Positions 366 through 64,000 of a DNA stretch of 64,000 bases are shown here, piece by piece. A program made the translations under genes and the position numbers. The notes beneath the pieces are model-generated. The model was not told the DNA's origin, searched no databases, and was given only the letters and a program-made list of their open reading frames with translations. This stretch comes from Membranipora membranacea (Eukaryota > Bryozoa > Gymnolaemata > Cheilostomatida > Membraniporidae), in NCBI GenBank assembly GCA_914767715.1, contig OU612067.1, positions 19,101,001 through 19,165,000 on the forward strand, in the 5' to 3' direction. The number at the start of each line of letters is the position of its first letter. The stretch's first letter is position 1.

Positions 366-389
366 ATATATATATATATATATATATAT
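366..389. repeat. (AT)n microsatellite
   Basis: This is an uninterrupted AT dinucleotide run directly abutting the end of the hAT-like element. The equivalent run in copy B (55,037-55,070) is longer. Its sequence blurs the 8-bp target duplication of the element. Confidence 0.9.
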
Positions 390-646
390 CCCTCATCACC
401 AGCTCATTAACCACCATGCTTTTCAGCGTGGTAATTAACTCATAACGCCTGAGCTATTTTGCCCACCACCTTTCTCATAATATCGCTCAATGTCGCATAT
501 TACATGCTGTAAAATTTCAAAAGTGGAGCCTTGGGCATATTACGTAAAATTCCTGCCGTCAAATGAATTTATGGTTTTTGATATATTAGCTTTCATGGTT
601 AGGTGCAGTAATGCTTACATTCAAAGTTATGTTCTTTTACTTGCAG

Positions 647-5547: not shown

Positions 5548-6170
5548 TGATATTATCATGTAAATTTCACCAGTAAAGTGAGAGGTGAAGAGGCATAGGT
5601 TCCCTGAAGGAAACTGTTGGGCTGATCACGTTTTAACTTTTAGGTCACCCTACGGTGTAACAGCAAGAAATGCTGTCCAGTGGTTCAGAGAGAGTTGCGA
5701 TATCAATGGGATGCTTCTCTGCGAACATTTCAATGCTCACAGAGATCAGACTTAACTACATGAGCCCTCACACTAGAGTAGCATATCACTTCAGTTGACA
5801 TTTAGAAACTAGTTCAACATTAGAATACTTGGTATTAATATACAATCGCAGCTGGACTTAATATCATATCACTCAATCAATCAAAAGTGGCAGAAAAACA
5901 GAAAATTTTCAAAGAAAACTTCTAACCATAGTAGTAATATTTCATCATCTGATAAAACAATATGCAGGGGTAGATAACTTGTTAACGAGATCAATTTGGA
6001 TAAAATTAATATGGTATAAATGTCACATAATATAGAATTGTCAAAACATTCACATCCAGTTCACACAGACACTCCATCAGAACAAATCATATATGAAACT
6101 AGTCTTAGTGCTCAGACTACATTAGAAAACAGATTTATATATTAATATAGAATTATGAATTATTATTTCA
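5548..6170. other. Spacer between convergent ROCO copy A and CEP295 copy 1
   Basis: This is AT-rich sequence collinear with 59,500-60,121 in copy B. It should hold the 3' UTR of the minus-strand CEP295-like gene. No other feature is apparent. Confidence 0.5.
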
Positions 6171-38286: not shown

Positions 38287-39800
38287 AAACACACAACACT
38301 TTGTGAGCTTATAGTGCCTAGCTAGTTCATTAGCAGGCAAATTAGTCCGATTTATGAGAAAACATGATTTTCTGTTTCTTAGCAGAATAAAATGTTACAT
38401 CCTCTCTCTTATTCCAAACAGGGAAAAAAATTCAAGTTTCTATTTTCGAAAATGTGATAATCGAACAGCCCCCAAATAGTTCTTAACATTTTTCCCTGCC
38501 AATGAGCAGCACAGCAAGAGAAATTATACATCTCCCCATTTGAGGGTATTGACGATAACTGGGAATGTTCTCAACTCGCTATTTGGTTGCGAATTTTCTA
38601 TGTTGCCGACTAACATTTCAAAGTTCATAATAATATTATGTCATGTATGCCATTTATTAATGTTCTGTGTTTAATATGTCTGACAGTGGAAAAAATCTAT
38701 TGGTTGGGCATGATCAAAAATCCAAGGAGAGAATTTACCTATGAGGATGAGAGCAACTAATATCGCTAATGACAAGATCAAAAAATTCTAAGAACCCCTA
38801 CCAAATATACTTTGGTTGAAATAAAGGGTCATACCAGAATTTTTGAGCACGTCTTAGCTCTATCTTTGTGTTCCTACATGCGTTCTCCTAACGGTGTCGG
38901 CAATGTATACCTGTTTTAGGACGTTTATGCCAGAAGTCTGTTATCAAAAATTATTGATGTGATCACCATAACCAGTAGATTAAAGTTAAACATTAACATA
39001 TAGCTTGAACAAGCTGTATTTCACCAATGATTGTCTTTTGTGTAAATTTGAGCACAATTAATTTAACAAGGCAGTGTTTGATATGCAGACATGCCAATGG
39101 CACGACAAATATTATCTCTATAGAAACTTTCCCTAACTTTTCACGAAAAAGAACAATCTCTAGGATTTCTAGGAGTTCTAAAACTGAAAAGTCACCACTC
39201 CTGCAATGGGAAAATTTAACTTGTATATAGACAGAAAGTAAATAGGTCAATTGGGCTTATTTTGGTGCCGTCGCTATGGAGCAGAGAAATTCTTATCTCA
39301 TATCTAGAACAGAATCGATCCCTTTGGTAGCGCAGGGATATTAGTTACTCTGGAGCTACGCTAGAGGCATCTTGATTCATTGCTCATAGATATTCAAGTA
39401 TACCAAACATGTTTTAGATGTTAAGTCGAACCCACGCGGAACAAGAGATTTATTATAGATTTTTGGGCTGTTCAAAAACTGTTGGTACTTTGCTGGGCAG
39501 GTAACATCCATTTTACTTTTTCCAACAAGCTTCAAGGTACATACCCAGTTGTGGGCTAAAGTAAACCAACCCCTGCATATCCCATCCTATGCCTTGATTC
39601 AATAATTTCTATATTCGCATGCACAGTGACTGTTTTGGCAGCATAGATAGGTACAGTATGATCTCCATTGGATTAAAATGCAAACTGATAGGCGATGTGA
39701 ATTAATGATGTAAATAAACATTTGATTTTAGCTATCAGTCACATTGCATCCAATAATCTATCAACCGTGACAGATTCTTGGCAGTTGACATTGTGCTGGT
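38287..39800. repeat. 1.5-kb segment duplicated from 30,195-31,800 (copy 2)
   Basis: Direct repeat of the earlier segment. It lacks the ~60-bp palindrome-bearing insert and carries scattered substitutions. The 67-codon frame persists at 39,027-39,230. Downstream (39,830-40,160 and 40,540-40,745) a second, smaller duplication repeats GAGAAATGGATT...GACAGAGGTAAGTG. Confidence 0.8.
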
Positions 39801-41948: not shown

Positions 41949-44900
41949 ATGGCGGAAGTCGGAGATGGAGGTACTGCCAAAAGACGCAGGACATCAGATA
42001 AACAAATGCTGACTAAAGATGGTTTCCCTGTGACTTCTGAAAGTGAGGCATGTAAGTGGTTAAAAGATACTTAAAGTGAGATCACTATAAGTGTAATAAT
42101 TGTCGTTACTTTTATCTACAACATTTTGTAAATTTGATGACTTACAAGAATAGCGCTCAAGAGACAGTTTTCTGAGCTTTTGAAAAATTTAAGCCGCTCT
42201 TTAGAGTTGTCTTCCCGTCTGTCTTGAAACACCATTATTTTGCCTGATTTTTGCTGACCAACAAAATCTTTATCACAACTGGGAAAACATGCAATTATGG
42301 GCAAATTATATACTTACCTTGACTTGTCTTAAGTGGGGGAAGGGTAGTGCTATGATACTGTATTTTCTGGGATATTGACAGCTACAGATCTTACTTAACC
42401 CTGGACAATTTTTGCCTATTAACTAAACACATCCTTGCTGTCAGTATGGTCAGCATGTTCCAAACAGTATGCCAGTGTATCCATGATTATGAGAGTTGTC
42501 TGTATTTGAGATTCGTATGAATTGAAGCGATCGGTTGCGCTATTTAAAGCTGCTCCTGATTGCTGTTAATATAATAAAAGCTACCCTGTAGAGTTTTAAG
42601 GTTTTTTGAGACTTGAGGAAATAATTAATTTTAGCCTTTCACTTATGTTTTTTTGCAGGTTATAGAATATGGTATAAACATAGTTTGGAGCCAGAGTGCA
42701 CTGACTTCCTGATTAATGACCCTCATCTAACCCAGATATCACTGTCAGATCTGACAGCTGCTATTGATGGCCTCGATATCACTCACATGATCATCGGCGG
42801 TGATATCCCACCTACTCTTGGTCAGATTGCTCCTGATCTGAAACAACTCAGACTAGGACAAATACGACACCCAGATCAGCTACAGAGGTGAGCGTACCTT
42901 TTGTGGGATATGGTATGGTGTGTCTGTATCTGATTTGTGTGAGTGCATTTAGTGAAGTGATAGTATGTCCAAGGAAAACTATTGCTGAGATTCTTAAATC
43001 TCCTATCATGTGAGTTGTCTTCCTATTATCAGCACTATAATGGTGTTGAGTGAAAAATTGAAATTTAATATCATGTGAAATTTATTTCAGTGCAAAACTT
43101 AGATCCCATTTTCTCGTAGGGTGTTTTGATGACCGATATCAATAACCATGGCTATTCGTTATCACCAGCAGTAAGCCCATTAGTTTTATGTGATAGTTAT
43201 TTCCTGATCACCTCACATGTAATTTTAATATATTACAGCATTTTCTCACTGACAGCTCTAGAGGGGTTATCTGTATCAGGTAATAAAAAACTTCAAACAT
43301 TACCTGATGATATAGGTATGATGAAGTTACTGAAGGTGTTAGATGTGTCAAACTGTGATTTGACTCATTTACCTACAAGGTTAGTAATGTTCTCATGATC
43401 AGGACTATAAAAGCAATATATTAGTGATGTTACATTATTTATGACAGATAAGCCCATTAGTTATATGTGATAGTTATTTCCTGATCACCTCACATGTAAT
43501 TTTAATATATTACAGTGTCTGTTCACTACCAGCTCTAGAGAAGTTATATGTAACAGATAATAGTAGACTTCAAACGTTACCTGATGATATAGGCATGATG
43601 AAGTCACTAAAGGTGTTATATATGTTAGACTGTGATCTGACTCATTTACCAACAAGGTGAGTAATGCTCTTATGATCAGAACCATTGTAGAAATATATTA
43701 GTGATGTTACATTATTTATGATAGATAATTTGGATAAAATGCAGGAATCTATAATAAAACAAATTTTCATTTTATATTAGAAGAAAATATTGATGACAGA
43801 AATTCACACTGTGGCTATTATAACAATAATCTGTTACTCGTAGTTATCTCCTTGTTACACTTCATATTTAATATTTATTATGTATATTATAGTATTTGTA
43901 CACTGACAGCTCTAGAGGAATTATCTGTATTCGGTAATAGGAGACTACAAATTTTACCTGATGATATAGGTATGATGAAGTTACTGAAGGTGTTAGATGT
44001 GTCATACTGTGATCTGACTCATTTACCTACAAGGTGAGTAATGCTCTTATGATCAGAACCATTGTAGAAATATATTAGTGATGTTACATTATTTATGATA
44101 GATAATTTGGATAAAATGCAGGAATCTATAATAAAACAAATTTTCATTTTATATTAGAAGAAAATATTGATGACAGAAATTCACACTGTGGCTATTATAA
44201 CAATAATCTGTTACTCGTAGTTATCTCCTTGTTACACTTCATATTTAATATTTATTATGTATATTATAGTATTTGTACACTGACAGCTCTAGAGGAATTA
44301 TCTGTATTCGGTAATAGGAGACTACAAATGTTACCTGATGATATAGGTATGATGAAGTCACTGAAGGTGTTAGATGTGTCATTATGTGATCTGACCCATT
44401 TACCAACAAGGTGGGTAATGCTCTTATGATCAGATTTATGAAAGTGATATATTAGTGATGTTACATTATTTATGATAGATAATTTGGATAAAATGCAGGA
44501 ATCTATAATAAAACAAAGTTTCATTTTATATTGGGAGAAAATATTGATGACAGAAATTCACACTCTGGCTATTATTTCAATAATCTGTGACTGGTAGTTA
44601 TCTCCTTGTATTACTTCACATATAACATATTATGATGTATGTTACAGTGTCTGTTCACTGACAGCTCTAGAGAAGTTAAATGTATCAGATAATAGTAGAC
44701 TACAAATGTTACCTGATGATATAGGTATGATTAAGTCACTGAAGGTGTTATATATGTTAGACTGTGATCTGACTCATTTACCAACAAGGTGAGTAATGCT
44801 CTTATGATCAGAACCATTGTAGAAATATATTAGTGATGTTACATTATTTATGATAGATAATTTGGATAAAATGCAGGAATCTATAATAAAACAAATTTTC

Positions 44901-47900
44901 ATTTTATATTAGAAGAAAATATTGATGACAGAAATTCACACTGTGGCTATTATAACAATAATCTGTTACTCGTAGTTATCTCCTTGTTACACTTCATATT
45001 TAATATTTATTATGTATATTATAGTATTTGTACACTGCCAGCTCTAGAGGAGTTATATGTATCAGGTAATAGTAGACTTCAAACGTTACCTGATGATATA
45101 GGTATGATGAAGTCACTAAAGGTGTTATCTGTGCGGCTCTGTGATCTGACCCATTTACCAACAAGGTAAGTAATGCTCTTATGATCAGATTTATGAAAGT
45201 GATATATTAGTGATGTTACATTATTTATGATAGATAATTTGGATAAAATGCAGGAATCTATAATAAAACAAAGTTTCATATTATATTAGAAGAAAACATT
45301 GATGACTGAATTTCACACTGTGGCTATTATATCTATAATCTGTTACTGGTAGTTATCTCCTTGTCTTACTTCATATTTAATATTTATTATGTATATTACA
45401 GTGTCTGTTCACTGACAGCTCTAGAGAAGTTAGATGTATTCGGTAATAGGAGACTACAAATTTTACCTGATGATATAGGTATGATTAAGACACTGAAGGT
45501 GTTATATGTGTCTAGCTGTGATCTGACTCATTTACCTACAAGGTAAGTAATGTCCTTATGAGCAGAACCATTGAAGCAATATGTTAGGGATGTTACATTA
45601 TTTATGATAGATAATTTGGATAGAATGCAGGAATCTATAATAAAACAAAGTTTCATTTTATATTGGGAGAAAATATTGATGACAGAAATTCACACTCTGG
45701 CTATTATTTCAATAATCTGTGACTGGTAGCTTTCTCCTTGTTACACTTCACATATAACATATTATGATGTATATTACAGTGTCTGTTCACTGCCAGCTCT
45801 AGAGGAGTTATATGTATTAGGTAATAAAAGACTTCAAACGTTACCTGATGATATAGGTATGATGAAGTCACTAAAGGTGTTAGATGTGTCATACTGTGAT
45901 CTGACTCATTTACCAACAAGGTGAGTAGTTCTTATGATCAGAACCATTGAAGCAATATATTAGTGATGTTACATAATTTAAGATAGATAATTTGGATAGA
46001 ATGCAGGAATCTATAATGAATCAAAGTTTCATATTATATTAGAAGAAAATATTGATGACTGAAATTCACACTGTGGCTATTATATCTATAATCTGTTACT
46101 GGTAGTTATATCCTTGTATTACTTCACATATAACGTATTATGATGTATATTACAGTGTCTGTTCACTGACAGCTCTAGAGAAGTTAGATGTATCAGGTAA
46201 TAGTAGACTACAAATGTTACCTGATGATATAGGTATGATGAAGCCACTGCAGGTGTTAGATGTGTCAGGCTGTGATCTGACTCATTTACCTACAAGGTGA
46301 GTAATGTCCTTATGATCAGAACCATTGAAGCAATATATTAGTGATGTTACATAATTTATGATAGATAATTTGGATAAAATGCAGGAATCTATAATAAAAC
46401 AAAGTTTCATTTTATATTAGAAGAAAATATTGATGACAGAAATTCACGCTGTGGCTATTATATCAATAATCTGTTACTGGTAGTTATCTCCTTGTCTTAC
46501 TTCATATTTAATATTTATTATGTATATTACAGTGTCTGTTCACTGACAGCTCTAGAGAAGTTAGATGTATCAGGTAATAGTAGACTACAAATGTTACCTG
46601 ATGATATAGGTATGATGAAGTCGCTGAAGATGATAGCTGTGTCATACTGTGATCTGACTCATTTACCTTCAAGGTGAGTAATGTTCTTATGATCAGAACT
46701 ATCGAAGTAATATATTAGTGATGTTACATAATTTATGACAGATAATTTGGATAAAAATGCAGGAATCTATAATAAAACAAAGTTTCATTTTATATTAGAA
46801 GAAAATATTGATGACAGAAATTCACGCTGTGGCTATTATATCAATAATCTGTTACTGGTAGTTATCTCCTTGTCTTACTTCATATTTAATATTTATTATG
46901 TATATTACAGTGTCTGTTCACTGACAGCTCTAGAGAAGTTAGATGTATCAGGTAATAGTAGACTACAAATGTTACCTGATGATATAGGTATGATGAAGTC
47001 GCTGAAGATGTTAGCTGTGTCATACTGTGATCTGACTCATTTACCAACAAGGTAAGTAATGCTCTTATGATCAGAACTATCGAAGTAATATATTAGTGAT
47101 GTTACATTATTTATGATAGATAATTTGGATAAAATGCAGGAATCTATAATAAAACAAAGTTTCATATTATATTAGAAGAAAACATTGATGACTGAAATTC
47201 ACACTGTGGCTATTATATCTATAATCTGTTACTGGTAGATATCTCCTTGTATTACTTAACATATTACGTATCATGATGTATATTACAGTGTCTGTTCCTT
47301 GACAGCTCTAGAGGAGTTATCTGTAATAGGTAATGAAAAACTTCAAACACTACCTGATGATATAGGTATGATTAAGTCACTAAAGGTGTTATCTGTGTCA
47401 CACTGTGATCTGACTCATTTACCTTCAAGGTGAGTAATGTTCTCATGATCAGGACTATAAAAGCAATATATTAGTGATGTTACATAATTTATGATAGATA
47501 ATTTGGATAAAATGCAGGAATCTATAATAAAACAAAGTTTCATTTTATATTAGAAGAAAATATTGATGACAGAAATTCACGCTGTGGCTATTATATCAAT
47601 AATCTGTTACTGGTAGTTATCTCCTTGTCTTACTTCATATTTAATATTTATTATGTATATTACAGTGTCTGTTCACTGACAGCTCTAGAGAAGTTAGATG
47701 TATCAGGTAATAGTAGACTACAAATGTTACCTGATGATATAGGTATGATGAAGTCGCTGAAGATGATAGCTGTGTCATACTGTGATCTGACTCATTTACC
47801 TTCAAGGTGAGTAATGTTCTTATGATCAGAACTATCGAAGTAATATATTAGTGATGTTACATAATTTATGACAGATAATTTGGATAAAAATGCAGGAATC

Positions 47901-50900
47901 TATAATAAAACAAAGTTTCATTTTATATTAGAAGAAAATATTGATGACAGAAATTCACGCTGTGGCTATTATATCAATAATCTGTTACTGGTAGTTATCT
48001 CCTTGTCTTACTTCATATTTAATATTTATTATGTATATTACAGTGTCTGTTCACTGACAGCTCTAGAGAAGTTAGATGTATCAGGTAATAGTAGACTACA
48101 AATGTTACCTGATGATATAGGTATGATGAAGTCGCTGAAGATGTTAGCTGTGTCATACTGTGATCTGACTCATTTACCAACAAGGTAAGTAATGCTCTTA
48201 TGATCAGAACTATCGAAGTAATATATTAGTGATGTTACATTATTTATGATAGATAATTTGGATAAAATGCAGGAATCTATAATAAAACAAAGTTTCATAT
48301 TATATTAGAAGAAAACATTGATGACTGAAATTCACACTGTGGCTATTATATCTATAATCTGTTACTGGTAGATATCTCCTTGTATTACTTAACATATTAC
48401 GTATCATGATGTATATTACAGTGTCTGTTCCTTGACAGCTCTAGAGGAGTTATCTGTAATAGGTAATGAAAAACTTCAAACACTACCTGATGATATAGGT
48501 ATGATGAAGTCACTAAAGGTGTTATCTGTGTCACACTGTGATCTGACTCATTTACCTTCAAGGTGAGTAATGTTCTCATGATCAGGACTATAAAAGCAAT
48601 ATATTAGTGATGTTACATTATTTATGATAGATAATTTGGATAGAATGCGGGAATCTATAATGAATCAAAGTTTCATATAATATTAGAAGGACATATTGAT
48701 GACTGAAATTCACACTGTGGCTATTATATCTATAATCTGTTACTGGTAGTTATCTCCTTGTATTACTTAACATATAACGTATCATGATGTATATTACAGT
48801 GTCTGTTCACTGCCAGCTCTAGAGAAGTTAACTGTATCAAGGAATAAAAAACTACAAACGTTACCGGATGATATAGGTATGATGAAGTCACTAAAGGTGT
48901 TAGATGTGTCATACTGTGATCTGACTCATTTACCTTCAAGGTGAGTAATGTTCTTATGATCAGAACTATCGAAGTAATATATTAGTGATGTTACATAATT
49001 TATGACAGATAATTTGGATAAAAATGCAGGAATCTATAATAAAACAAAGTTTCATTTTATATTAGAAGAAAATATTGATGACAGAAATTCACACTCTGGC
49101 TATTATATCTATAATCTGTTACTGGTAGTTATCTCCTTGTATTACTTCACATATAACATATTATGATGTATATTACAGTGTCTGTTCCTTGACAGCTCTA
49201 GAGGAGTTATATGTATCAGGTAATAGTAGACTTCAAATGTTACCTGATGATATAGGTATGATGAAGTCACTAAAGGTGTTATCTGTGTCAAACTGTGATC
49301 TGACTCATTTACCTACAAGGTTAGTAATGTTCTTATGGTCAGATTTATGAAAGCGATATATTAGTGATGTTACATTATTTATGATAGATAATTTGGATAG
49401 AATGCGGGAATCTATAATGAATCAAAGTTTCATTTTATATTAGAAGAAAATATTGATGACAGAAATTCACACTATTGCTATTATTTCAATAATCCGTGAC
49501 TGGTAGCTTTCTCCTTGTTACACTTCACATATAACATATTATGATGTATATTACAGTGTCTGTTCACTGCCAGCTCTAGAGAAGTTATATGTAACAGATA
49601 ATAGTAGATTACAAACGTTACCTGATGATATAGGTATGATGAAGTCTCTAAAGGTGTTATATGTGTTAGGCTGTGATCTGACTCATTTACCTACAAGGTG
49701 AGTAATGTTCTTATGATCAGAACTATCGAAGTAATATATTAGTGATGTTACATAATTTATGGTAGATAATTTGGATAAAATGCAGGAATCTATAATAAAA
49801 CAAAGTTTCATTTTATATTAGAAAAAAATATTGATGACAGAAATTCACACTGTGGCTATTATATCGATAATCTGTTACTGGTAGTTATCTCCTTGTATTA
49901 CTTAACATATAACGTATTATGATGTATATTACAGTATTTGTTCACTGACAGCACTAGAGGAGTTACACATCAACAGTAACAAGAAGCTACAAACGTTACC
50001 TGATGATATAGGTATGATGAAGTCTCTAAAGGTGTTAGATGTGTGGGGCTGTGATCTGACTCATTTACCTGCAAGGTAAGTAATGCTCTTATGATCAGAA
50101 CTATCGAAGTAATATATTAGTGATGTTACATAATTTATGGTAGATAATTTGGATAAAATGCAGGAATCTATAATAAAACAAAGTTTCATTTTATATTAGA
50201 AGAAAATATTGATGACAGAAATTCACACTGTGGCTATTATATCTATAATCCGTTACTGGTAGTTATCTCCTTGTATTACTTCACATATAACATATTATGA
50301 TGTATATTACAGTGTCTGTTCACTGACAGCTCTAGAGAAGTTATATGTATCAGATAATAGTAGACTTAAAACGTTACCTGATGATATAGGTATGATGAAG
50401 TCACTGAAGGAATTAAAAGTGCAGTACTGTGATCTGACTCATTTACCAACAAGGTGAGTAATGCTCTTATGATCAGAACTATCGAAGTAATAAATCAGTG
50501 ATGTTACATAATTTATGATCGATAATTTGGTAAAATGCAGGAATCTATAATAAAAAAAAGTTTCATTTTATATTAGAAGAAAATATTGATGACAGAAATT
50601 CACACTGTGGCTATTATATCTATAATCTGTTACTGGTAGTTATCTCCTTGTTACACTTCATATTTGATATTTATTATGTACACTTCACATTTAATATTAA
50701 TTATTATGATATATATTATATTACAGCATTTGTTCACTGACAGCTCTAGAGCAGTTAAAGGTATATGGTAATAATAGACTACAAACGTTACCTGATGATA
50801 TAGGTATGATGAAGTCACTGAAGGTGTTAGAAGTGTGGGGCTGTGATCTGACTCATTTACCAACAAGGTGAGTATTGCTCTTATGATCAGAACTATCGAA

Positions 50901-51673
50901 GTAATATATTAGTGATGTTACATAATTTATGGTAGATAATTTGGATAAAATGCAGGAATCTATAATAAAACAAAGTTTCATTTTATATTAGAAGAAAATA
51001 TTGATGACAGAAATTCACACTGTGGCTATTATATCGTAATCTGTTACTGGTAGTTATCTCCTTGTATTACTTAACATATAACGTATTATGATGTATATTA
51101 CAGTGTCTGTTCACTGACAGCACTAGAGGAGTTACATATCAACAGTAACAAGAAGCTACAAACGTTACCTGATGATATAGGTATGATGAAGTCTCTAAAG
51201 GTGTTAGATGTGTCTTACTGTGATCTGACTCATTTACCTTCAAGGTGAGTAATGTTCTTATGATCAGATTTATGAAGTAATATATAGTCAGGAAATTCAC
51301 CCTCTCAGGATAGCCAGCATGGGTGTAGCTTACTTTATTCTGATTGCCAATATTGGATGCGTAAAGTCTAATGGCACTCCAAGACGAAAAGTCAATTTAA
51401 ATCAAGACTACCACCAAGGCATAAAAAAGAATAAGTTCATTTACTATGATTTGATTTTGTACTAATAAACTCAACACTTACAGATAAACAACGATATAAT
51501 TTGATGAATAAGTAAAAGTAATAAGTACACATTATTAGTCTGGACCGCCAGCAAACATGAAGTGATAAGTTGTAAGAGCGATGGTTTTAGGTTGTTAAAA
51601 CAGGTACAGTCTGATCATTTAAATGATACATTAAAGAATTGTTATAACAGTTAGAACATAGTGAAGGAATTGA

Positions 51674-51705
<32 letters not shown>

Positions 51706-54700
51706 ATGTAGTGACATACCATACCATACCATTCTTATAACAGTCAACCACTATAAATTCCCCACATTATAAGTGGTGTTACATAATTTATGGTATTTAT
51801 TAGATAGATTTTACATAATATTTGATGTGCGATTGGCAAAAATCAGTATTTACATAGCATCACAATTTTAAAAAACTATCTCCAAAGCCCAATTTGAGGA
51901 TCTGTGCTGTACTTTTATACACCACAAACGGCAATTTGGATCGAATCACACTATACAAACATAATCACCATGCCTCAATTATCCATTCAGTTAGATAAAT
52001 CACCAAATTCAATAAAAGTAGATGATTGCTTCCTGATATTCGGAGCTTTCTGTTAGACATGAATAATTAATTTTTCTTGCAGTATCGGTCAGCTGATCAA
52101 CATAGAGAGCTTGGATATCCGTTACAACAGGAGACTAACTACGATACCTGAGAGCTTAATCAGTACCAATGCAGTACGGCGAGTCAAATTTGAAGGTTGT
52201 GATGGGCTAACATCTCCACCTCTGAGCGTCTGTAAACTTGGCCTTGAAGCTATGAGAGGACACTTGAAACATCTGAAAGGTAAATTTATCAATCAAACTT
52301 TTGACGGGAGTCATCAGCTCAAGCTTAAAATTTTGTTTGAAAAAGTGCAACAAAAATTAACGAATCATCGCTATCAATGGGTTTAAAAACTTGAAAGATT
52401 AAACTTGTGATGAACGTAGCTTTCCAATAACACTATTTGACAACTGATATTTGATTGGAGAGATTATCTTTATTTAATATATTAATAGGTTTAGCAGTGT
52501 GGCAACCTAGTAATAATTTGTTGAAAATCGGTGAATCACCTTTTGATATAAAATATGACAAAATAATATAGGCTTCTTTGGAGTCGTGATCTACTCATTC
52601 AATAAAAGGTGTATCCAACAATAATCTGCCACAAATGCGAGGAGGACTGACACTACATACACATCAAGTTTTTACAAGGACATCATAAGGTGTACTCTTG
52701 AGTTTTGGCATCTACTTGTGTTCCTCTCTTTTAGTCTGGTACAGGCATACATTGGAACCAAAGATTGACGCAATTCCATATATAGATGAGGAACAACTGA
52801 CTCAGATCTCATTGTCAGAGTTGACAGCTGTCACTAAAGGGCTTGACATAACACACATGTATACCAGTGGCTATATCCCACAAAATCTACACCAGATTGC
52901 CCCTAAACTGAAACAGCTCAGACTGAATGTGATACCGAAAGAAGATCAACTAATGAGGTTGGTTTTACCATTATTATCATCACTATCAGTTTATAGAAAA
53001 AGCAGAGGCACATGTCAGTTTGGTAGTGTAGAGCATGACTTAGTCCTTGACTTGTAATTAGTCAATTGCTCATTATTCATTATTGGAGAGGTATACACCC
53101 AAGGGTGCTGGGGGATGGAACAATCAACCTTGAAAGTTCTCCAAATGGGACTCGAACCCACAACTCCTGCCGCACTAATCGCCTGGCTGTGAAAAGCAAG
53201 CGCTAACCAATTGCGCATCTCACAATCATCAAAAAATAATGGCCCCAATTAGAAAGCCTGCTATTCACTACTCAGATTTGTGTTGTCACATCTAACAGCA
53301 CATACCAAACCACTGCTGCCACCCTATGAAACACAGCGCACTCGTTAGGGTTCTTGGCCTCACATAGCTCATTGCTGGAATCCCTGAAAGTTAATTCATT
53401 ACCATGCCCTTACACATGGCAGTCATATATCAAATAAGTACTCACGTATTATTTGGTATGTATATCGCTACAGTAGCTCACTGACATATCTGGAGATGTT
53501 GGATGTGTCCTGGAACAGTAAAGTAGACACTTTACCTGACTGGATATGTCAGATAAGATCACTTAAGGAGTTATATGTTCGAGATAATGAACTCAGCAAA
53601 CTACCAGACTCGTGAGTGATGCAATCAGTTTATGTATGGAATATGATGAAGAAACCAGTTTTTCCTACAATACGCTATATTTATGCCTTCACCACATTTA
53701 CATGTGTGTGGTAACATGATCACTTGTGTGCAGGCTGGTCAGCACCATAATGAAATAAAAAGTGTATAACTTGTTCTAGTGCTATCTAGACTAATCAATA
53801 TTTCCACCGTATTACAGGATTAACTCACTAAAAAACCTGGAGAAATTGGATATATCAGGCAATAACGTGGAGACATTACCTGAATGGTGAGCACTTTTAC
53901 ATGTTCATATATATATATATATTTGGAGCCGATTTTATATATTCACTACTAAAGATTCACCATATATGATAAGTAGTGAATCTTTGAGGCCTCTAAACTT
54001 ATAATTGAATGTTTGTGACTCTCAATGTTATGTAATAAAAGGTTTCTGGTTTTAATTTCCAATTCCGTCTGCATTAAGGGTAATATAAATCTGCGATTCC
54101 TTGTTGACCCAGAATTAGCTTAACCTTCATACTGATGATTCAGAATATTGCTTGACATTCCCTTATCAAAATTTGATGCTCCACCAAATAGATCTAAATG
54201 ACAACAAAGATTTCACCAAATTTCTGTTCCCATCGGTATATCAGCATCAGCTTGATGAAGAAGCTAGAGAAGCTAGTTGTATCTCGTAATCAGATTCAAA
54301 CACTGCCTGAGGGGATAGCAGAGATGATATCACTAAAAGAGTTATCTGTATGGAGGTGTAAACTCAGAGAAATACCAGACTGGTGAGTGAATAAAGACTA
54401 GTATGAGAAGGTAGTGTGATACTAGTTTGTTCATATAGCCAGTGTTCACGTATGTTTACACTAAGTCACTATTATTTCACTTCAAACTTCATCTGTATGA
54501 GAAAATGGTAACTGTTTGATTGTATTGTCCTGCATAGAGATATGAAATAGGAATATGTGAGCAAATTTGAATATCGTGCATATCGACCAATATCGATCAA
54601 TATGGGATTACATATACATATATACATATCAGTGGCGTATATTAGCAATCACGGCCCACGGAATGCCGTGAATGGCTGAATAGCTCAGTGTGTAGAGCTA

Positions 54701-55033
54701 CTGCCTAATAATCACTGTTAATAAGATTAATGTGGGTTCGAATCCCATCAAGGTTCAGTTTTTTTCAAATGGGTGCTTTATAACTGGAGCATTTTTACCG
54801 TAATCTTCTACTGCTATTGAGTTGTTTTCTGAAAGTACCCAACAGCTCAGTGAGCTATTGAAATACCTCTCTGCTTGCACTATTTTGCTACCGATATGCA
54901 AAAATTTCCATGGTGGGAGGGCGCCCCTCCCACACCCTCCCCGCCACGCCTACGGCGTGTGGATCGGGCTGCGCCCATTCATTATGCTCATCTCTAAAAA
55001 GTCAGTGAGTGAAATTTTTTAGAATATACGCCC

Positions 55034-55074
<41 letters not shown>

Positions 55075-58000
55075 CATCACCAGCTCATTAACCACCATGC
55101 TTTTCAGCGTGGTAATTCACTCATAACGCCTGAGCTATTTTGCCCACCACCTTTCTCATAATATCGCTCAATGTCGCATATTACATGCTGTAAAATTTCA
55201 AAAGTGGAGCCTTGGGCACATTACGTAAAATTCCTGCTGTCAAATGAATTTATGGTTTTTGATATATTAGCTTTCATGGTTAGGTGCAGTAATGCTTACA
55301 TTCAAAGTTATGTTCTTTTACTTGCAGCATTGGACAGCTGACCAATCTCATCAAACTGGATGTCCGATACAATGACAAGCTAACCAGCATTCCTGAGAGT
55401 CTGTACAGTGTTAGTACATTACAAGAAGTCCTGTGTGATGGCTGTCATACACTAACCTCTCCACCTCTGGCTGTCTGCAACCTCGGAGTTAAAGCTGTGA
55501 GAAAGTACTTATTTGATCTCCGTGTGGAACGAGGAAGTAACCAACTGCTTTTTCCTGTCACAGTAATCGGAAAGAGGAAGGCAGGTAAAACTAGCCTTGT
55601 TCAAAGTGTCCAACAGAACAAAAGAGTGCTGACACAGCGTGAATCTTCTGAAGAAGGTCTGGTTGATGCTGCCACCAAAGTATTCAAAGTATGTGAAGCT
55701 GATATAGATAAGACAACGAAACTGATATTTACTGACTTTGGGGGACACACAATGTACCACTTTTCTTATCAGCTGACCTTCAAGACTCAGTGTGTGCCAC
55801 TGCTGGTAATAGACATAGCTGAGTTTGACAGGTTGGCTGATAAGAATGGTGAGGAGTCAGCTTGTGAAGAGCTATGTCTAACATGGCTAGCTCATCTGTA
55901 TATCTCATCACCAGGTCTCAACCGACCAGTAGTAGTCCTCACTCATCGTGACAAACTTAGTGATGAATGTTTCACCCGCCGAGAACAGCAACTCATTGAG
56001 GTCACTGAAAGGTTACGACAGCACATCATTGAAGCTGAGAGAAGTGTATCCCCAACACTAAGCCCTGTTTTTACTATGACTACCTTTAGTGATACCTCGG
56101 AACCCTTCATAGGACACATTGACATTCTTGATTTATCAGACACATCTGATCTGACTGACATTAGTGACTTGAAGGATGCCCTCCTCATTGCTGGCTCAGA
56201 GCTGATCACAGAGATCCCAGGAATATGGTATCTAATGCTTATCAGAATCACTGAACGAGTTGACCAACCATTCATTCACCTGTCAGAAATAGATAAAGAG
56301 TTTCCTGATGACAAAGAGCATGTGACCCTTCAATATCTCCACGAAACAGGATGTATCATGTGGTTTGGGAAAATAGACAAACTTTCAAACTACATATTCC
56401 ATCATTCAGAGGTTTTGACAGGTCTCATAGAAATCCTATACAGTCATACCCTAGATGATACCTGGAGCAAACGCCTGAACCTCTTTTCTCCTTTCACCTC
56501 TGATGGGAAGAAGATAGATAAAAGGAAATACACTGCTATGATTGACAACTTCAACGCGACAGGAGTAATAGAGGCTTCTTTGCTCCTAAATCTGCTGGAA
56601 AAGGAATCTACAATCCCAGCTGATATCTCAGTAGAAATCCTGAAGACATTTCACCTCATTCATCTATGTGGACCAACATCTGATTTAAGTCATGAGAAAT
56701 ACATCGTACCATATTTTGCGAAGGAAGAGATAAAAGCGCCTGAGGTCTTTGATAGTCTGATCCCACTGAAGGTAGATCTATGGCTACGAGGTCTCCCTAT
56801 TCCGGGCTACGTCTTCTCCCTCATTACAGCAGCCTACCTGGACATAAACTCAGACCCCTACAACTACCCTGAGGTTGGTAAGAACGGTGTAACAGTGACC
56901 AACCACACGAACAAAAGTGTCAAATATCTTCTACATGATGCTACAGAAAAGCGTCTCTCCCTGATTACTCTCGCACCCCTGAGGAGAATCGGTGATGCAT
57001 GGTGTGATCATCTCGCCTCACTCCGACAGCTCATCTCAGAACTGCGTTCAGTTTGGAAAGCAGTTCGCTATCAGAATGTCTTCGTTTGCTCCCATTGCTT
57101 ACTCTCAAATAAGCCAACTCCAACTACTGCTGTCGATCCTGATTGGTTTCAGCCAGAAAACCTGGATGGAGATCTAGATGTTTGCTATACGGGAAAGGAG
57201 ACTCGTGTATGCAAAGCTACAGCTGCCATCACGGAAAGTGAAACCGTTCCAACACCACTGATTTCTCCGTGTGAGTAATATCTCAAAGACAGCCAAACAG
57301 CTGCTCCTCTTTCCGCTCTGCAAAAACTGTTGCTAGAAATACGAACCTGATTGTCAATAAACAACCATAAGCCCATGATGTGATCAAATGTCACTTTCTC
57401 TCTGCAACCCCGCTTCATTCCATTTTGTTTATCAGACAGTTGATTGTTAGGCATCATTTCAATGGAGGCTTTAGATTATTTTGTTTTATCTGCAGGTTCT
57501 GACATATCTGAAACTGGATATGACGTGCTAAACGCTTACATCTCAAACCTCCGAGTTCTGTCTAGTAAGTTGTTTTACACCAATCTTTCAAGTGTAATCC
57601 GGATAATTGTAAATAATTTGGTTTGTCATATGTTACGACGACTTTGTTCTCAGAACTGTCTGTGCTGATCTTCAATTACTATCTGAATCGATGAAAATAC
57701 CCATCATTGATCGAGGTGTATAATATTCATCTTTATTTTCTCATAGATGAGTCAAAGATTCTGAAGGAGCTCATAGAGAAACATCCACTCGACACAAAGG
57801 ACATCAAGCTGCTGTTTGACCACAGTGATCAGTATATAATACCACATCAGGAAACTCATGTGAAGAGATGTGGATTAGTTCTGTTCAACTCTGACAACAG
57901 AGAGGGGGCCGCAAAAGAAGCTAATGCTATGAGTGAGAGCCTCACCAAATCTGGAATTCAGACTAAGACAGTGGAATGGAAGCGGGACTATGATCTGTTT

Positions 58001-58733
58001 GCTGAAATCCATGATGAGCTGACTGGGCTGATTTCTGATGGACTATCACTGCTCATCGTCTCAATCATGTCACATGGTACAGCTGGAATTCTGACCGGAA
58101 TCAACGACTCCAAAATAGCTATTTCTGATGTGCTGAAGACGTTAAGAGTCAAGCTACCTAAACATATCCCTCTGGTAAGTTGTATCCCCACTGAATTTCC
58201 TAGACCAGTTTTCGGAGGCTGCATTTTTCTATAGATATTTGATCATAATATTGTGTGTTTTGCAGTTATTACGGCAAACCTTATGAAATTGATAATTAAG
58301 GAGTAAATCCTTCAATCTTTTGCAGATTCTCATATTGCAGGCTTGTCAAGCCTATTCCGATTCGGGATCTCAGAGTCATATAGACGCTGGCCGCGCAGAA
58401 CCACCTAAGTCTTATGTAGTTCTGGAGAGGCCTCATACTCTGTTACTGATGTCATCAGTTGTTGGAGGGATGGCTGTAAGAGGAGCGTTCACAGGGGCCA
58501 TGGCTAGACAGTTCGCTAAGGCTAATGGGAAGATAACTATAAACGATATGGTGACTAATGCAGTCATCGACATGAAGAAGAATGAACCAGATGAGTACAA
58601 TCAGTCCCCAGAATCAAGGAACACTCTACAGAAGAGTCTGATCCTCCCACCAGGTATAGATACACCAGATTCACAGCAACACAGTGAGGGAACATCTAAG
58701 GAAAGCCTCCTGGAGAAACTCTTAGGCAAATGA
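41949..58733 (+). CDS. LRR-Roc-COR-caspase-like protein, copy B (complete, 33 exons)
   Basis: Exons: 41949-42051, 42659-42887, 22 cassettes of 141 nt (listed separately), 52083-52279, 52735-52957, 53474-53611, 53818-53886, 54245-54382, 55328-57270, 57496-57564, 57747-58174, 58326-58733. All phases match; 7,047 nt, 2,348 residues. The ATG follows an in-frame TAG two codons upstream; an early basic KRRR could be a nuclear signal. Order: short N-terminal module (~35-110), LRRs (~111-1210), a second copy of the N-terminal module (~1211-1284), more LRRs, Roc (P-loop GKRKAGKT near 1481, DFGGH, THRD), COR, a CSHC patch, and a caspase-like domain (His 2180 in SHG, Cys 2220 in QACQ, p10-like tail). 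ROCO GTPases work as nucleotide-gated dimers; a cytosolic sensor with protease output is my inference. Two adjacent genes split near 52,300 remain possible, but no ATG was found for the second. Confidence 0.85.
43239..51244 (+). repeat. Array of 22 LRR exon cassettes (141 nt each, ~377-bp period)
   Basis: Exon starts: 43239, 43516, 43893, 44270, 44648, 45025, 45402, 45780, 46156, 46533, 46911, 47289, 47666, 48044, 48422, 48800, 49179, 49557, 49935, 50313, 50727, 51104. Each is exactly 141 nt, has AG before and GT after, and starts and ends in phase 2. Any number can therefore be gained, lost or skipped without a frameshift. Each encodes 47 residues, two LRRs of 24 and 23: LxxLxVxGNxxLQxLPDDIG, then MKSLKxLxVxxCDLTHLP. 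None has a stop. The period is 376-379 bp except for two steps (277 and 414). Together they would add 44 LRRs. Introns are themselves near-identical, showing recent unequal exchange. Confidence 0.95.
46339..48562 (+). repeat. Recent three-cassette block duplication (1,133-bp period)
   Basis: Cassettes at 46533, 46911 and 47289, with introns, are repeated at 47666, 48044 and 48422, offset 1,133 bp. By eye the two blocks are identical except for an ATT/ATG (Ile/Met) change in the third cassette. This is the youngest step in growth of the array. Confidence 0.9.
51245..52082. other. Intron after the cassette array, with (AT)n run
   Basis: The first ~50 bp still resemble the array introns; the rest is unrelated. 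An AT run lies at about 51,679-51,705. It holds no exon that I can support. It marks the downstream border of the repeat expansion. Confidence 0.6.
52083..52386 (+). other. Terminal-LRR exon with alternative read-through end
   Basis: Spliced at 52,279 (G|GTAAAT) this exon continues into the second N-terminal module. If the donor is ignored the frame runs on to a stop at 52,386, which would give an LRR-only protein without Roc or caspase. The exon is paralogous to the start of the Roc exon (GQL...NKLTSIPESL-type sequence then SPPL..C.LG), so the gene carries two copies of its terminal LRR. Confidence 0.45.
53050..53235 (-). mobile_element. tRNA-derived SINE
   Basis: On the minus strand an A-box-like GCGCAATTGGTTAGCGC is followed by an exact B box GGGTTCGAGTCC about 45 nt later, then an unrelated body toward 53,050. 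A T-arm can be drawn, but the acceptor ends do not pair, so this is not a functional tRNA gene. It lies in the intron between ROCO exons 52,735-52,957 and 53,474-53,611. The 3' border is approximate. Confidence 0.6.
54630..55036. mobile_element. hAT-like non-autonomous element with tRNA-like core, complete (copy 2)
   Basis: The termini are CAGTGGCGTATATT and AATATACGCCCCTG, 407 bp apart. The flanks are ATACATAT and ATATATAT, an 8-bp duplication with one mismatch in AT-repeat DNA. It carries the tRNA-like A and B boxes. It occupies the same intron position as the element at 1-365, giving an inherited insertion shared by both ROCO copies. Confidence 0.85.
55037..55070. repeat. (AT)n microsatellite
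   Basis: Pure AT run at the element's right edge, about 10 bp longer than its counterpart at 366-389. Confidence 0.9.
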
Positions 58734-60121
58734 GTTTTCAAGTTATTTCTGGTCTATGCAAGTGACCTTTCACAGACTTTCCATGTGGAAGTATTCTATA
58801 AACCATCATTCAGGTCAAGATATACAATCATCTCGTAAGATTGATCAGTTCCACAAATCAACCTGATCATTCTCGCTGTGTTCAGATGTTACGTCTGTAG
58901 CGTATCAGCATAGTGACTGGTGAAGTCATTTTCTGTAAATTCGTTGCATGTTTGACTCAGGCAAGACTATGAGTTTTATGTAAATGTGGCTGATCACATT
59001 TAACACTTTCAGATATTGGTAGATCATTAATTCTGAATCAATGTTTGAAGATGATTTGGATAGCTAGAATTATTTTTTGTTGACATTTACTTTTGTACTT
59101 TTGTATAACTTGAGACTTGAACATAAGTTTACATCTGGTAATCGCGCCTGCAACTTAATGGTTCTGTTCCATGCCACTGCTGACCGAGAGTTTTTTATTT
59201 CTTATATTCTTCATTTACAAGTTTATGCTGTATTTTAATATAGAGAGGGATGATTTCTTGTGACGAGTCTTCAGTGTTGGTTGTATTTGAATCTATAGCT
59301 GTTTATTAATTAGTTTGTGATTCACTGGTATAGCGTGTCCTTGGAATTTCCTACATTAAAAAATTATATTCAACAATGCCACTAAATTGTCGGGTCTTGT
59401 GACATCCAATACTAGCTTTAGTTTCTGTGGATTGTTAGTCAATGTTATCAGGTATTGCCTAAATCTTATCAAGGAGGTAAAGACAGTCTTTAACTCCTTG
59501 ATATTATCATGTAAATTTCACCAGTAAAGTGAGAGGTGAAGAGACATAGATTCCCTGAAGGAAACTATTGGGCTGATCACGTTTTAACTTGTAGGTCACC
59601 CTACGGTGTAACAGCAAGAAATGCTGTCCAGTGGTTCAGAGAGAGTTGCGATATCAAAGGGATGCTGCTCTGCGAACATTTCAATGCTCACAGAGATCAG
59701 ACTTAACTACATGAGCCCTCACACTAGGGTAGCATATCACTTCAGTTGACATTTAGAAACTAGTTCAACATTCGAATACTTGGTATTAATTTACAATCGC
59801 AGCTTGACTTAATATCATATCACTCAATCAATCAAAAGTGGCAGAAAAACAGACAATTTTCAAAGAAAACTTCTAACCATAGTAGTAATATTTCATCATC
59901 TGATAAAACAATATGCAGGGGTAGATAACTTGTAAACGAGATCAATTTGGATAAAATTAATATGGTATAAATGTCACATAATATAGAATTGTCAAAACAT
60001 TCACATCCAGTTCACACAGACACTCCATCAGAACAAATCATATATGAAACTAGTTTTAGTTCTCAGACTACATTAGAAAACACATTCATATATTAATATA
60101 GAATTATGAACTATTATTTCA
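58734..60121. other. Spacer between convergent ROCO copy B and CEP295 copy 2
   Basis: AT-rich sequence collinear with 4,050-6,170 minus the foldback element, whose empty target TGATATTATCA is near 59,500. It probably holds the 3' UTRs. No gene is seen. Confidence 0.6.
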
Positions 60122-63003
60122 TCATGACGATTTTATACTCCTAGCCAGTAATTTACTCCCATATTCTTTTCTGCGAGCCTGTACATCTACTTTCTGTGCC
60201 TCTCTGGCTTTATAAGCTCTCTTCTGTTTTACTTCTTCTAACTGACCATACAATCTGTGTATAAGATAAATAGTAAGTGAATAATAGCCTGTGTCCCACA
60301 CTACAAAGTGGTGGAGGTGGGAGGAGTCCCTATGTACTTACATCAATCAGAATTTCCCAATTGGTTTAGAACGTAAGTTTCTAAAACCAAGAATGATTGA
60401 GTTGCAGCCAACAGGACATGAGAGCAGAGGATCTTCGTAACAGTGCGGTAAGATATGACAGTTTTTTCACAATCTGCTTTCAGATAATAATCCGTTGGGG
60501 GTTACCTCATCTCAGTGGCAGACAATGTCATCTATGTTCTGTTATATAACATGAGGCCACTCCAAATTAATACCTTGATCTAGATGACAGTATGAGGATT
60601 TGTAGGTGGAGGGAGGTGATTTTTTATTTTATATTTTAGCCCTACAAAACAGCTGGAGGTAAAATAGTTTTTTTATTTTATCTATCTACCCTGAACTCAA
60701 GTGGCTGTAAATTCTATTTTATTTTCTCTCTCCAACTCACATGCACGAATCTTAAATGGTTGAGTTTGCCACATCATGAGTGTTTGATAATGTAATGCCA
60801 CAAACTCACATTGCAAGCCATCAAAGTCTAGTATAAGGCATATATGATATAAACTTTTGATATAACCATATGCTTGCTATCACAATATTTGTATACAAAT
60901 AAGTAGCCAATGACCCAAGAGTAGCATGCCACGCCTCCTACCCTGAGTAAGTCTAATTTTATTATTTGTAAAATCCACGATGGACAATAAAGGAGGGAGA
61001 CAAAATTGCAGAGAAAGTATTCCTATTATATTTCTTGTTCTCTTCATCCATATTGAGTCACCACTCACCATAGGTAATAAAATTATATATCATGCATACC
61101 ATGTGCATACATATAGGGAATTTACAGGCGTTTAGGGGTATATGTTTTATATTTTACTTGGTCAATTGACCAGGAGGTAAAATATTTTATTTTTTTATGA
61201 CTATTCCCAGCTGGCATCTGGTGGTATCTTGATTTGATCAGGGCTCTGACAAGGCGGTGGGCGTTCATCTAGATCAAGGAATTAATTTGGAGTGGCCTGA
61301 TAATGCAAAAACTACTCAGAAAATCATAACTGACCTTTTAGTTCTCTCAGTCATCTCTTTCTTTTGTTTCTTTCTCGCAGCAGAATCTAAAGTTCTCACA
61401 GAAGTCTTCGGTCTGACATCTGGGTCGGCTCTAGTCTGTGCTTCTGCTATAAAGTTATATAAATAGTTATAAGTGTTGTTGGCTATAACTCAATATTGTT
61501 ATTGTGTGGCTCATAATATTTATGATTTATTATTTATGACCAATAACCACACATTAAAAACTTCTGCAATATATAGAAGCCTATTTGATATTGGAGCATA
61601 CTACATAGGATATGATTGTGACCAGCATGAGAATTAGAACAGTTACGCACAAAAGATGATCATGATCATCAAAATTCTAGCTACCTTCCATTTATTATTA
61701 CATCTTATATAAACACATATAGAAATACAATTTCCAGTATCCTAATAATTCAATATACATAGATGAAGCCGGAAGTCATGAACAAACCTGTCAAAGGCTC
61801 CTCCTCAATCCACTGTAGTCCAGGTACAGCTGACAGCACCTCACCTACATTCTCAGCCTGTTCATCATCACCACTACCTGCAGTCTGTGGTTCCTCTACT
61901 AATGTTAGATTGGATTCATCAGGTATAGTGCTGGCGAATGTGATCTCAGGTTCTTCTAATAGACCAGTAGAATGTTCTGTGTCCTGAAATGTAATGACAT
62001 GAAACCGGTAAGAATGCAGTATAAAGGTATGAATATGAAGGTATTTGCTGAAGTGTAACTATTTTATTTCCATCTTAAAACTTAACAATTTGTTGTATTG
62101 TCCTTCGCAGCTCTCCTCAGTGGAAACTTAGGAGGATTTATCAAACAATGAGATAGTTGACAGATCACAAAACTACAAGCGATTGCCGGGTGATAAAATA
62201 CAATGCAAGTATTTTACATACACCCTGGTCGGTCTCGACCAGCTTTGTTTGGATGGTGCTAAGACAGGCTATATACACTCTAAGTTTATACAAACATAGT
62301 ACATAGTACATATAGAACAGCACCTGTAATGGTTTTTGAGGAGTACTACTTGAAGGTCTACTACTGATAGTTATCTTCATAGGAGTAGATTGCGAGATAT
62401 CAGCATCACCAAGCAACATATCATCTACAAAATAATCATACCTTCTCATGTCATACCAACTTATCGAGCCAAAAGGAAGTTAGACCATAGGAATTCGGAA
62501 TTTGATATAGCAATGTTGTTCAAAACTTGCTCAATCATTTTCCAGGTCTGAAATGATACATGATACAGATGACCTTTGATCTCTACTACAGTATGGATAA
62601 TTAGAGGATAACTGGCAGCTTTTTCGAGGCTATAAAGAGCATTTAGTCAGGAAGCAGCCCCCACTTTCACTTCTACCAAATGACTGGGGTTTAATTGTGC
62701 TTAATGTAAGGAGTTTTTGGAGCTGATCACAATGGTGGCACAATATGCGGCTGTTATTGACCTTACATGGCCCATTGCTGCGAAAATAATATTTGTGTTT
62801 GACTACTCTTACTGTAATAAAAGCTATTCAATAAGAAGGTCATGTCTCCTCTAAATATACTCCCCACCCCCACCCACCGCAGTTTGTCACACTGATCGGC
62901 GGTGTCTTTGGAGAGCCTTATAGTAATAATAAACACCTACCGACAGAAAATCTAGTCTCTTCCTGGTCTGCTGCTAATGTTTTCATCGGTGATCCAAAGG
63001 AAT
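60122..63003 (-). CDS. CEP295: CEP295-like protein, copy 2 (3' end only; continues past window)
   Basis: Exons 63003-62941, 62424-62324, 61983-61788, 61446-61335 and 60254-60122 correspond one-to-one, with equal lengths and phases, to the last five exons of copy 1. The C-terminal ALMS-type motif (RLYGQLEEVKQKR ... KLLA) is intact and the stop is conserved. No frameshift or stop is seen, so nothing suggests a pseudogene in this part. Upstream exons should follow the minisatellite beyond 64,000. Confidence 0.82.
60555..61297. mobile_element. PIF/Harbinger-like MITE (copy in CEP295 copy 2)
   Basis: Same termini (GGCCACTCC...) and TGA flanks (60,552-60,554 and 61,298-61,300) as the element at 6,604-7,350, at the same intron position. 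It is an inherited insertion, not an independent one. Confidence 0.78.
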
Positions 63004-63534
63004 CTAAAATCATAAAAATATATATGTTCTGCCATGAGAGGTACAAATGACAATGGTTGATTACAATTGACACAGTTTAATTAACAGGATATACCCACCC
63101 TTGGAAAAGGTTTTCATTGAATAAGACAAGCTGATTAAGATGTTTATTTACTGTTATATCTGTGTGGTGTTACAATGTATATTTTTTGTGCCGCGTGTAA
63201 TCACTGCTCGAACGAATCAGCATTATCCCATAGACTAGAACATTGTAAGTCTGTTGTTGACAGTTTGTCCCTAGCAGTCAACTATGACCCCCAAATGAAG
63301 ATTATTCATCTAATTTTGGGTCAGCTGCGCCAAAAAATATTGCAGTGTTTTCAAAATTGCAAACAGAAAAAAAAGGGTTAAGGTCAATGCTACAATGGAC
63401 CTGTGACTTTACCAAGTCCTTGAGTCTGTCAGAAGAACATATACTGTCCCAGATAAGGAATCAGCAGGTGTAGTATTCATTACATAGACGCAGAGTGTTT
63501 GATCTTACAAGCAGTGAGTATGTACACTCACAAA

Positions 63535-64000
63535 ACGAATGCACGCACACACAGAACATGCATACACACAAATCGTACACACACACACACACATCCAGAA
63601 TGTATGTACACACACACACAGAATGTACATACATACGGATGGAACATACACACACAGAACATACACACACACAGAACATACAGACACACAGAACGTACTT
63701 ACACACAGAACATACACACACACAGAATATACACACACACAGAACATACACACACACAGAACGTACTAACACACAGAACATACACACGCACAGAACATAC
63801 ACACACACAGAACGTATGTACAAACAGAACATACACATAGGAAACGTACATACACACCGAACATACACACAAAACGTACTTACACATAGAACTTACACAC
63901 ACACCGAATGTACACACAGAACGTACACACACAGAACGTACACACCCAGAACGTACACACACACAGAACGTACACACCCAGAACGTACACACACACAGAA
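63535..64000. repeat. AC-rich minisatellite (copy 2, runs off window)
   Basis: Same units as 9,555-10,320 in the same CEP295 intron. Unit order differs between the copies, as expected for a mutable array. Confidence 0.9.

Follow-up and report, generated by a model that had tools for sequence, protein, structure and literature searches.

A predicted ROCO-type receptor with a built-in caspase domain in the bryozoan Membranipora membranacea

ROCO proteins of the MFHAS1 type combine a Roc-COR core with leucine-rich repeats (LRRs). The LRRK2 and DAPK1 types share this core, with LRRs in the LRRK type, and passages of a review of the family distinguish groups with LRRs only, with a kinase and, for DAPK, with a death domain; the words caspase, protease and peptidase have no occurrence in its main text (PMC6337361). 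Here we describe a candidate ROCO gene whose product would end in a caspase domain. It occupies positions 41,949-58,733 on the plus strand of a stretch of 64,000 nucleotides from Membranipora membranacea (Bryozoa; assembly GCA_914767715.1, contig OU612067.1, positions 19,101,001 to 19,165,000 of the forward strand), which we call the window and to which all further coordinates refer. Our reading, to which we assign a probability of roughly 0.7, is that the gene would encode an intracellular animal receptor of the ROCO type that carries a caspase of its own, that is, a single-chain immune receptor-protease. In the NLR inflammasome, an LRR sensor with a nucleotide switch, the NACHT ATPase, leads to caspase activation, with the work divided among three proteins, sensor, adaptor and caspase, whereas the window gene would hold a Roc GTPase and a caspase in one chain.

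A comparable design is known from bacteria, where it was described by authors whom we take to be Kaur and colleagues. According to passages of that work, bacterial LRR-AP-GTPase(Roc)-COR proteins carry at least 24 C-terminal domains, TIR and caspase among them, and the order LRR-Roc-COR-effector is the same as in the window gene (PMC8195603). The window gene differs from the bacterial proteins by a predicted caspase of the animal SHG/QAC type with putative Asp-type S1 residues and by LRRs that are encoded in a tandem exon array. Novel Gene 1 of the sea anemone is described as LRR-Roc-COR-TIR with a COR called at a low threshold, so that it is likewise an animal ROCO with an immune effector and a weak COR; its effector is a TIR instead of a caspase, and the passages that describe it contain no LRR exon array (PMC5094078). 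Brown-algal ROCOs share two other properties with the window gene, namely tandem phase-2 LRR exons, which are shuffled in the algae, and positive selection on concave LRR sites. However, the algal exons are 72 bp long and encode a single LRR, LRR-ROC-COR is the sole architecture reported in the parts of the article used here, and its main text nowhere uses the word caspase (PMC11378527).

An earlier reading of the window, made from its letters only and called the sequence-only reading below, had suggested that the fusion would be a new immune or cell-death design. This holds in part. In the open-licence literature (supplements excluded), no animal ROCO-caspase appeared in titles or opening abstract lines among the matches listed, and none is named in passages of PMC7159879 and PMC11797021. 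The legend of a figure on sponge NLRs names CASc and COR, their manner of combination lying outside the part of the source used here (PMC12909245). On the other hand, the design of a ROCO protein with a C-terminal effector is already published, as passages of two of the above articles show (PMC8195603, PMC5094078). It is the combination of an animal-type caspase as effector with a diversifying LRR exon array that was not found in print in the literature covered here.

Domains of the predicted protein

Conceptual splicing gave a gene model of 33 exons with a predicted protein of 2,348 amino acids. All 32 introns are GT-AG, the phases agree throughout and no stop occurs before the final codon. 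Pfam searches and exon structure support the predicted order of domains in this model, namely LRRs, Roc, a probable but diverged COR and a caspase spread over two exons. A large exon (55328-57270) contains the last LRRs, Roc, the probable COR and a tail with a CxxC motif, and a linker exon of 69 bp (57496-57564) joins the ROCO part to the caspase.

The caspase large-subunit exon (57747-58174) carries the putative catalytic His (58073-58075), which lies within SHG, and an S1 Arg (57899-57901). The last exon (58326-58733) carries the putative catalytic Cys (58344-58346) within QACQ, an S1 Gln (58338-58340), a second S1 Arg (58479-58481), a p10-like part and the stop codon. On the spliced C-terminal 948 amino acids, Pfam Peptidase_C14 reached 42.5 bits (E 8e-11, cut-off 21.4) over profile positions 17-232 of 233. 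Taken singly, the two exons scored 17.9 bits, below the cut-off, over positions 17-104 and 22.1 bits, above it, over positions 121-232; the two matches follow one another along the profile, which makes the intron separating the exons secure. With a profile of four human sequences (caspases 1, 3, 7 and 8, of which caspase-3 was verified), the domain scored 28.3 bits, compared to a top score of 6.5 bits among 2,000 shuffled sequences. The His, the Cys and the Arg, Gln and Arg of the S1 pocket all fall in the corresponding columns of the human caspases, the first strand of the domain being out of register there. In caspases, the Arg, Gln and Arg columns line the S1 pocket for aspartate. The predicted domain carries the SHG/QAC signature of animal caspases together with Asp-type S1 residues, the type being assigned by motif. 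This signature and the large number of introns point to an animal source. A metacaspase was considered and rejected on the SHG and QAC signature, the alignment being one with human caspases.

The Roc GTPase domain was matched by Pfam Roc at 55557-55835 (residues 77-169) with 27.0-27.7 bits, the value for the spliced 948 amino acids being 27.0 and printed as equal to the cut-off of 27. Its motifs are a P-loop, GKRKAGKT, at 55,569-55,592, a G3 motif, DFGG, at 55,734-55,745 and a G4 motif, THRD, at 55,941-55,952. In a phmmer search of the PDB with the Roc-COR exon, the best match was 3dpu (E 3e-6), which is listed as a Rab family protein and is presumably the Roco protein of Chlorobium tepidum, followed by 4wnr (E 2.5e-5) and, weakly, by LRRK2 (E 0.015). 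A scan with NCBIfam gave only small-GTPase and LRR-region matches below cut-off. An NLR identity was rejected, as the nucleotide-binding domain is Roc and NACHT was not matched in the C-terminal 948 amino acids (Pfam, E up to 1; in the N-terminal 1,400 amino acids the scan covered one module of 75 amino acids).

The sequence-only reading had named LRRs, a Roc P-loop with G3 and G4 motifs, a COR region and a caspase-like domain. Its coordinates and motifs are present in the sequence where it had placed them, and sequence profiles, together with the structure of the gene, support its LRR, Roc and caspase-like parts. The Pfam check that it had proposed put Peptidase_C14 above the cut-off, Roc at the cut-off and COR-A and COR-B below theirs.

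The LRR exons and the second copy

By eye, we count about 50 LRRs in the predicted protein. Most are encoded in a tandem array of 22 exons at 43239-51244, which was delimited by repeat families and the exon model. Each array exon is 141 bp long, in phase 2-2, and encodes two LRRs (by eye). The spacing from start to start is mostly 376-379 bp, once 277 and once 414. Length, open frame, phase and splice sites are kept in 22 of 22 exons, and 20 are distinct in sequence. A stretch of 1,133 bp that comprises three exon units (46297-47429) is duplicated next to itself at +1133 with 99.4% identity over 1,133 bp, which suggests a recent unequal exchange.

In the LRR consensus LxLxxN, the x residues point towards the ligand on the concave side. 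Variation among the array exons clusters at these positions, with a mean entropy of 1.76 and 1.49 bits for two site definitions, compared to 0.3 at the other positions (permutation P 5e-5 and 1e-4); the concave sites were taken from the LRR consensus, but only after the variability of the columns had been seen. The ratio of nonsynonymous to synonymous rates (dN/dS) was 1.90 at LxVxxNx sites (bootstrap 1.19-4.43), 1.55 at xxLxLxx sites (1.00-3.19) and 0.25 at the remaining 34 sites (0.20-0.33), values that come from pairwise counts among paralogous exons with possible gene conversion and serve as an indication, not as a formal test. Our data indicate that the concave LRR face diversifies while the rest of the LRR exon is constrained. 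The array of 22 exons with its diversifying concave sites is the most unusual feature of the gene, and was absent from the sequence-only reading.

The first coding exon (41949-42051) provides the ATG and a basic N-terminus and ends in phase 1. Stretches of 12 and 17 bases from this exon, searched as exact strings, have no second occurrence on the plus strand of the window. Ahead of the array lies an N-terminal module (42659-42887, WYKHSLEP...) without a Pfam match. The last LRR exon of this first block (52083-52279, phase 2 to 1) has a pre-Roc-like linker at its end and is followed by a second N-terminal module (52735-52957, WYRHTLEP..., phase 1 to 2), which is identical to the first in 42 of 76 aligned columns, and by three further LRR exons (53474-53611, 53818-53886 and 54245-54382), all in phase 2-2. 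Ahead of the second module, in 52,280-52,734, there are four ATGs, one of which has a phase-1 GT 4 bases on, a poor donor (GTTTAA). Since this interval offers no good start of its own, the second half of the gene, from 52,735 onwards, most likely depends on an upstream start.

An alignment within the window showed a second Roc-COR-caspase copy on the plus strand at 647-4049 (copy 1; exons 647-2586, 2812-2880, 3063-3490 and 3642-4049), with an intact frame and with its 5′ part outside the window. It belongs to a segmental duplication at a distance of about 54 kb, in which 1-4,848 is 96.4% identical to 54,666-59,509 and 5,542-9,053 is 97.7% identical to 59,493-63,010. In both copies the frame is intact, and the putative catalytic pair, His and Cys, is retained along with the Arg, Gln and Arg of the S1 pocket. 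The ratio of nonsynonymous to synonymous substitution rates (Ka/Ks) between the copies is 0.24 for Roc-COR (Fisher P 3e-10), which means purifying selection on this part. Between the two matching blocks of the duplication, copy 1 has an extra segment of about 0.7 kb (4838-5558), bounded by inverted arms of 68 nt that are 99% complementary and with a second inverted pair of 181 nt inside. It looks like a small mobile element that was inserted in one copy.

Prokaryotic relatives and alternative readings

Searches with the Roc-COR exon alone found nothing in viral contigs, and in genome contigs 10 stretches fitted the pattern, none of which was confirmed. An alignment of the two window copies with two cyanobacterial ROCOs gave at least 397 confirmed relatives among at least 582 matched stretches of genome contigs, and the best 80 of these loci were used as the prokaryotic ROCO set. 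A tblastn search of plasmids with the 948-amino-acid part yielded two COR proteins of cyanobacteria, the match being confined to residues 1-167. The tails were scanned in 68 of the 80 loci (12 with fewer than 520 amino acids after the P-loop were left out). COR-B was present in 68 of 68, TIR_2 in 8, TIR in 7 (the overlap with TIR_2 not being resolved) and a third TIR family in 2, and CHAT, EAD7 and AAA-type domains occurred in 1 tail each. The prokaryotic relatives follow the same plan of a ROCO part with a C-terminal effector. CHAT is a member of the caspase superfamily, and the protein that ends in it, from a Desulfonema metagenome-assembled genome (L049:700-3567), is a prokaryotic parallel to the ROCO-caspase plan. 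In a ROCO protein from a Beggiatoa metagenome-assembled genome (L073:2-2989), the tail matches an AAA_21 / AbiEii-type ATPase domain.

Several observations weigh against a single-chain receptor-protease, and they concern the COR, the structure models, the prokaryotic tails, the fusion junction and selection on the caspase. Pfam COR-A (56298-56411) reached 13-14 bits, or 13.1 on the spliced 948 amino acids, with a cut-off of 35.3, and COR-B (56877-57122), which runs into the CxxC motif, reached 12-13 bits, or 12.9, with a cut-off of 27. Both matches are placed in order behind Roc. Their E-values of about 0.1 each were computed for a search of all 24,736 Pfam models and are therefore not negligible where a particular model is expected beforehand at that position. 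A COR profile built from 71 of the 80 prokaryotic loci (9 with fewer than 480 amino acids after the P-loop were left out) gave both window copies higher scores (7.4 and 6.8 bits) than any of 2,000 shuffles (at most 4.4 bits), a match that rests on one stretch of about 38 residues around YLH-G-F, overlapping the COR-A match. With a profile of two cyanobacterial COR sequences, the window sequence was outside the six best of 2,001, with two partial matches below zero bits. Given sub-threshold Pfam matches, one positive and one failed profile test, the COR is probably present but diverged, and is the weakest domain of the protein; the COR region of the sequence-only reading is in its place behind Roc, but falls short of the Pfam cut-offs. 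The structure models are uninformative. AlphaFold2, with two near-identical sequences as input, gave a mean pLDDT (predicted local distance difference test) of 29.1 for the Roc-COR exon and 43.7 for the caspase large-subunit exon, both too poor to use. Foldseek with the latter model found no match at E <=0.001, and the top hits were thymidylate kinases and unrelated proteins, with no caspase among them; on so poor a model this result is uninformative and was not counted as evidence against a caspase fold. Finally, Peptidase_C14 was found in 0 of the 68 prokaryotic ROCO tails at E 0.001.

The weak point of the fusion is the splice from 57,270 to 57,496, by which both parts would be joined into one mature mRNA. 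By a scoring matrix derived from the remaining introns, it is the weakest among the last three introns, the two later ones being better. It was scored as well by 2.5% of 1,958 other GT and 1.7% of 2,100 other AG sites, fractions that are somewhat too high because these sites include 19 real donors and 19 real acceptors of the array. Additionally, an in-frame ATG at 57,462 (2,778 in copy 1) could start a separate caspase. There would then be two adjacent genes, an LRR-Roc-COR gene that ends just after 57,270 and a small caspase gene that begins at this ATG. Such an arrangement would also agree with an AATAAA at 57,356, between the two parts, and with the stop at 57,276-57,278 (intron bases 6-8) that the Roc-COR frame meets when unspliced. 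It nevertheless seems unlikely to us. The AATAAA is missing from copy 1 and appears in 11.5% of cases when the intron is subjected to mononucleotide shuffling, the Roc-COR frame ends in a GTGAGT donor with a downstream acceptor in matching phase, and the 34 bp from the ATG to the acceptor are not better kept between the copies (2 of 34 bases differ) than the rest of the intron (5 of 191). The unspliced stop can also be read as part of one locus with two products. In this case, LRR-Roc-COR would be the default product by intron retention after 57,270, the caspase would be added via regulated splicing, and splicing from exon 1 to 52,735 would likewise yield a short form. The latter splice is in phase and would give a form of 1,172 amino acids with a short LRR block, and 25 of the 33 exons are symmetric in phase 2-2, so that the frame is kept when such exons are skipped. 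In brown algae, alternative splicing of ROCO LRR exons is reported in part of the source cited above (PMC11378527). We regard two products as a serious possibility, though at less than even odds, and one that would be compatible with the single-chain receptor-protease, not opposed to it. For the GTP-switched, LRR-gated death protease of the sequence-only reading, profiles and gene structure support the architecture, but the junction rests on prediction from DNA.

For the linker and the caspase, Ka/Ks between the copies is 0.45 (Fisher P 0.13), and purifying selection is not significant. Downstream of the Roc-COR exon, the three remaining exons show differences at 17 of 905 bases, about as much as the three introns (13 of 558), so that copy 1 is no strong independent witness for the caspase. 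It appears to be too recent to show selection on this domain. Ks, the synonymous rate, is higher in Roc-COR (0.11) than in the caspase part (0.03) or the introns (about 0.02), which suggests that the 3′ part of the copies was homogenised by gene conversion. It had been claimed that both copies keep the fusion; the exons of copy 1 are indeed in open frame, but as evidence this is weak, the copies being nearly identical. The caspase domain might even be a pseudo-enzyme or a decaying duplicate without a proteolytic role, in line with the Ka/Ks value and with the divergence of the domain, for which a sequence search of the PDB was negative at E up to 0.1 (one phospholipase match at E 0.94 was taken as chance). 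Since the frame, the catalytic His and Cys and the three S1 residues are kept in both copies, we consider this quite unlikely. It is very unlikely that an assembly artefact lies behind either the array of 22 exons or the duplicate at a distance of about 54 kb. The duplicated block of 1,133 bp is 99.4% identical, and the copies, at 96.4% and 97.7% in two blocks of about 8.4 kb in total, are as similar as uncollapsed haplotypes might be; however, nearly all array exons are distinct and all of them keep their 141 bp, phase and splice sites, and neither the duplicated array block nor the duplicate touches the ROCO-caspase part at 55-59 kb.

Proposed mechanism and surroundings of the gene

The motifs expected for GTP binding and for proteolysis are present in the predicted protein. 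As a single-chain receptor-protease, it could work as follows. The LRRs, mostly array-encoded and diversifying at ligand-facing sites, would bind microbial or danger ligands. Ligand binding would alter the GTP state and the self-association of Roc-COR, and this self-association would cluster the caspase domains and lead to activation by proximity. The activated caspase would cut targets after Asp, with cell death or an inflammatory response as the outcome. GTP switching, protease activity, the type of ligand and the role in immunity are all proposed here from the domains that the gene is predicted to encode.

In vertebrates, sensing and caspase activation are divided among sensor, adaptor and protease. 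If sensor, GTP switch and caspase were held in a single protein, the logic by which immune receptors activate caspases could be tested in one molecule. Such a protein would also link the effector-bearing ROCOs of bacteria to animal cell death. The LRR exon array, phase-symmetric and diversifying at ligand-facing sites, resembles the ROCO system of brown algae and, provided that it is confirmed in an animal, would add another example of a receptor repertoire made from tandem LRR exons. A more far-reaching idea, which we put forward as doubtful, is an animal counterpart of the inflammasome in one molecule, with a renewable sensor, in which tandem, phase-symmetric LRR exons that diversify on the ligand side, expanded by recent unequal exchange and possibly mixed by alternative splicing, feed a GTPase switch that activates the caspase of the same chain. 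If this were true, an anticipatory type of receptor repertoire would be wired directly to cell death.

In the remainder of the window, the minus strand contains several open frames at 10769-25299, some of them Ser/Pro-rich and two with an ERERL motif, which are perhaps exons of one gene. Among 20 neighbouring open reading frames, some of which come from this region, none was above the Pfam cut-off, and one match below it was taken as chance; one neighbouring frame of 86 amino acids had no PDB match at E up to 1. A segment of about 1.4 kb is repeated at 30210-31594 and 38294-39667 with 95% identity. At 9502-10329 and 63457-64000 lies a long tandem repeat region; several frames are open on either strand, and their translations are rich in Thr and His.

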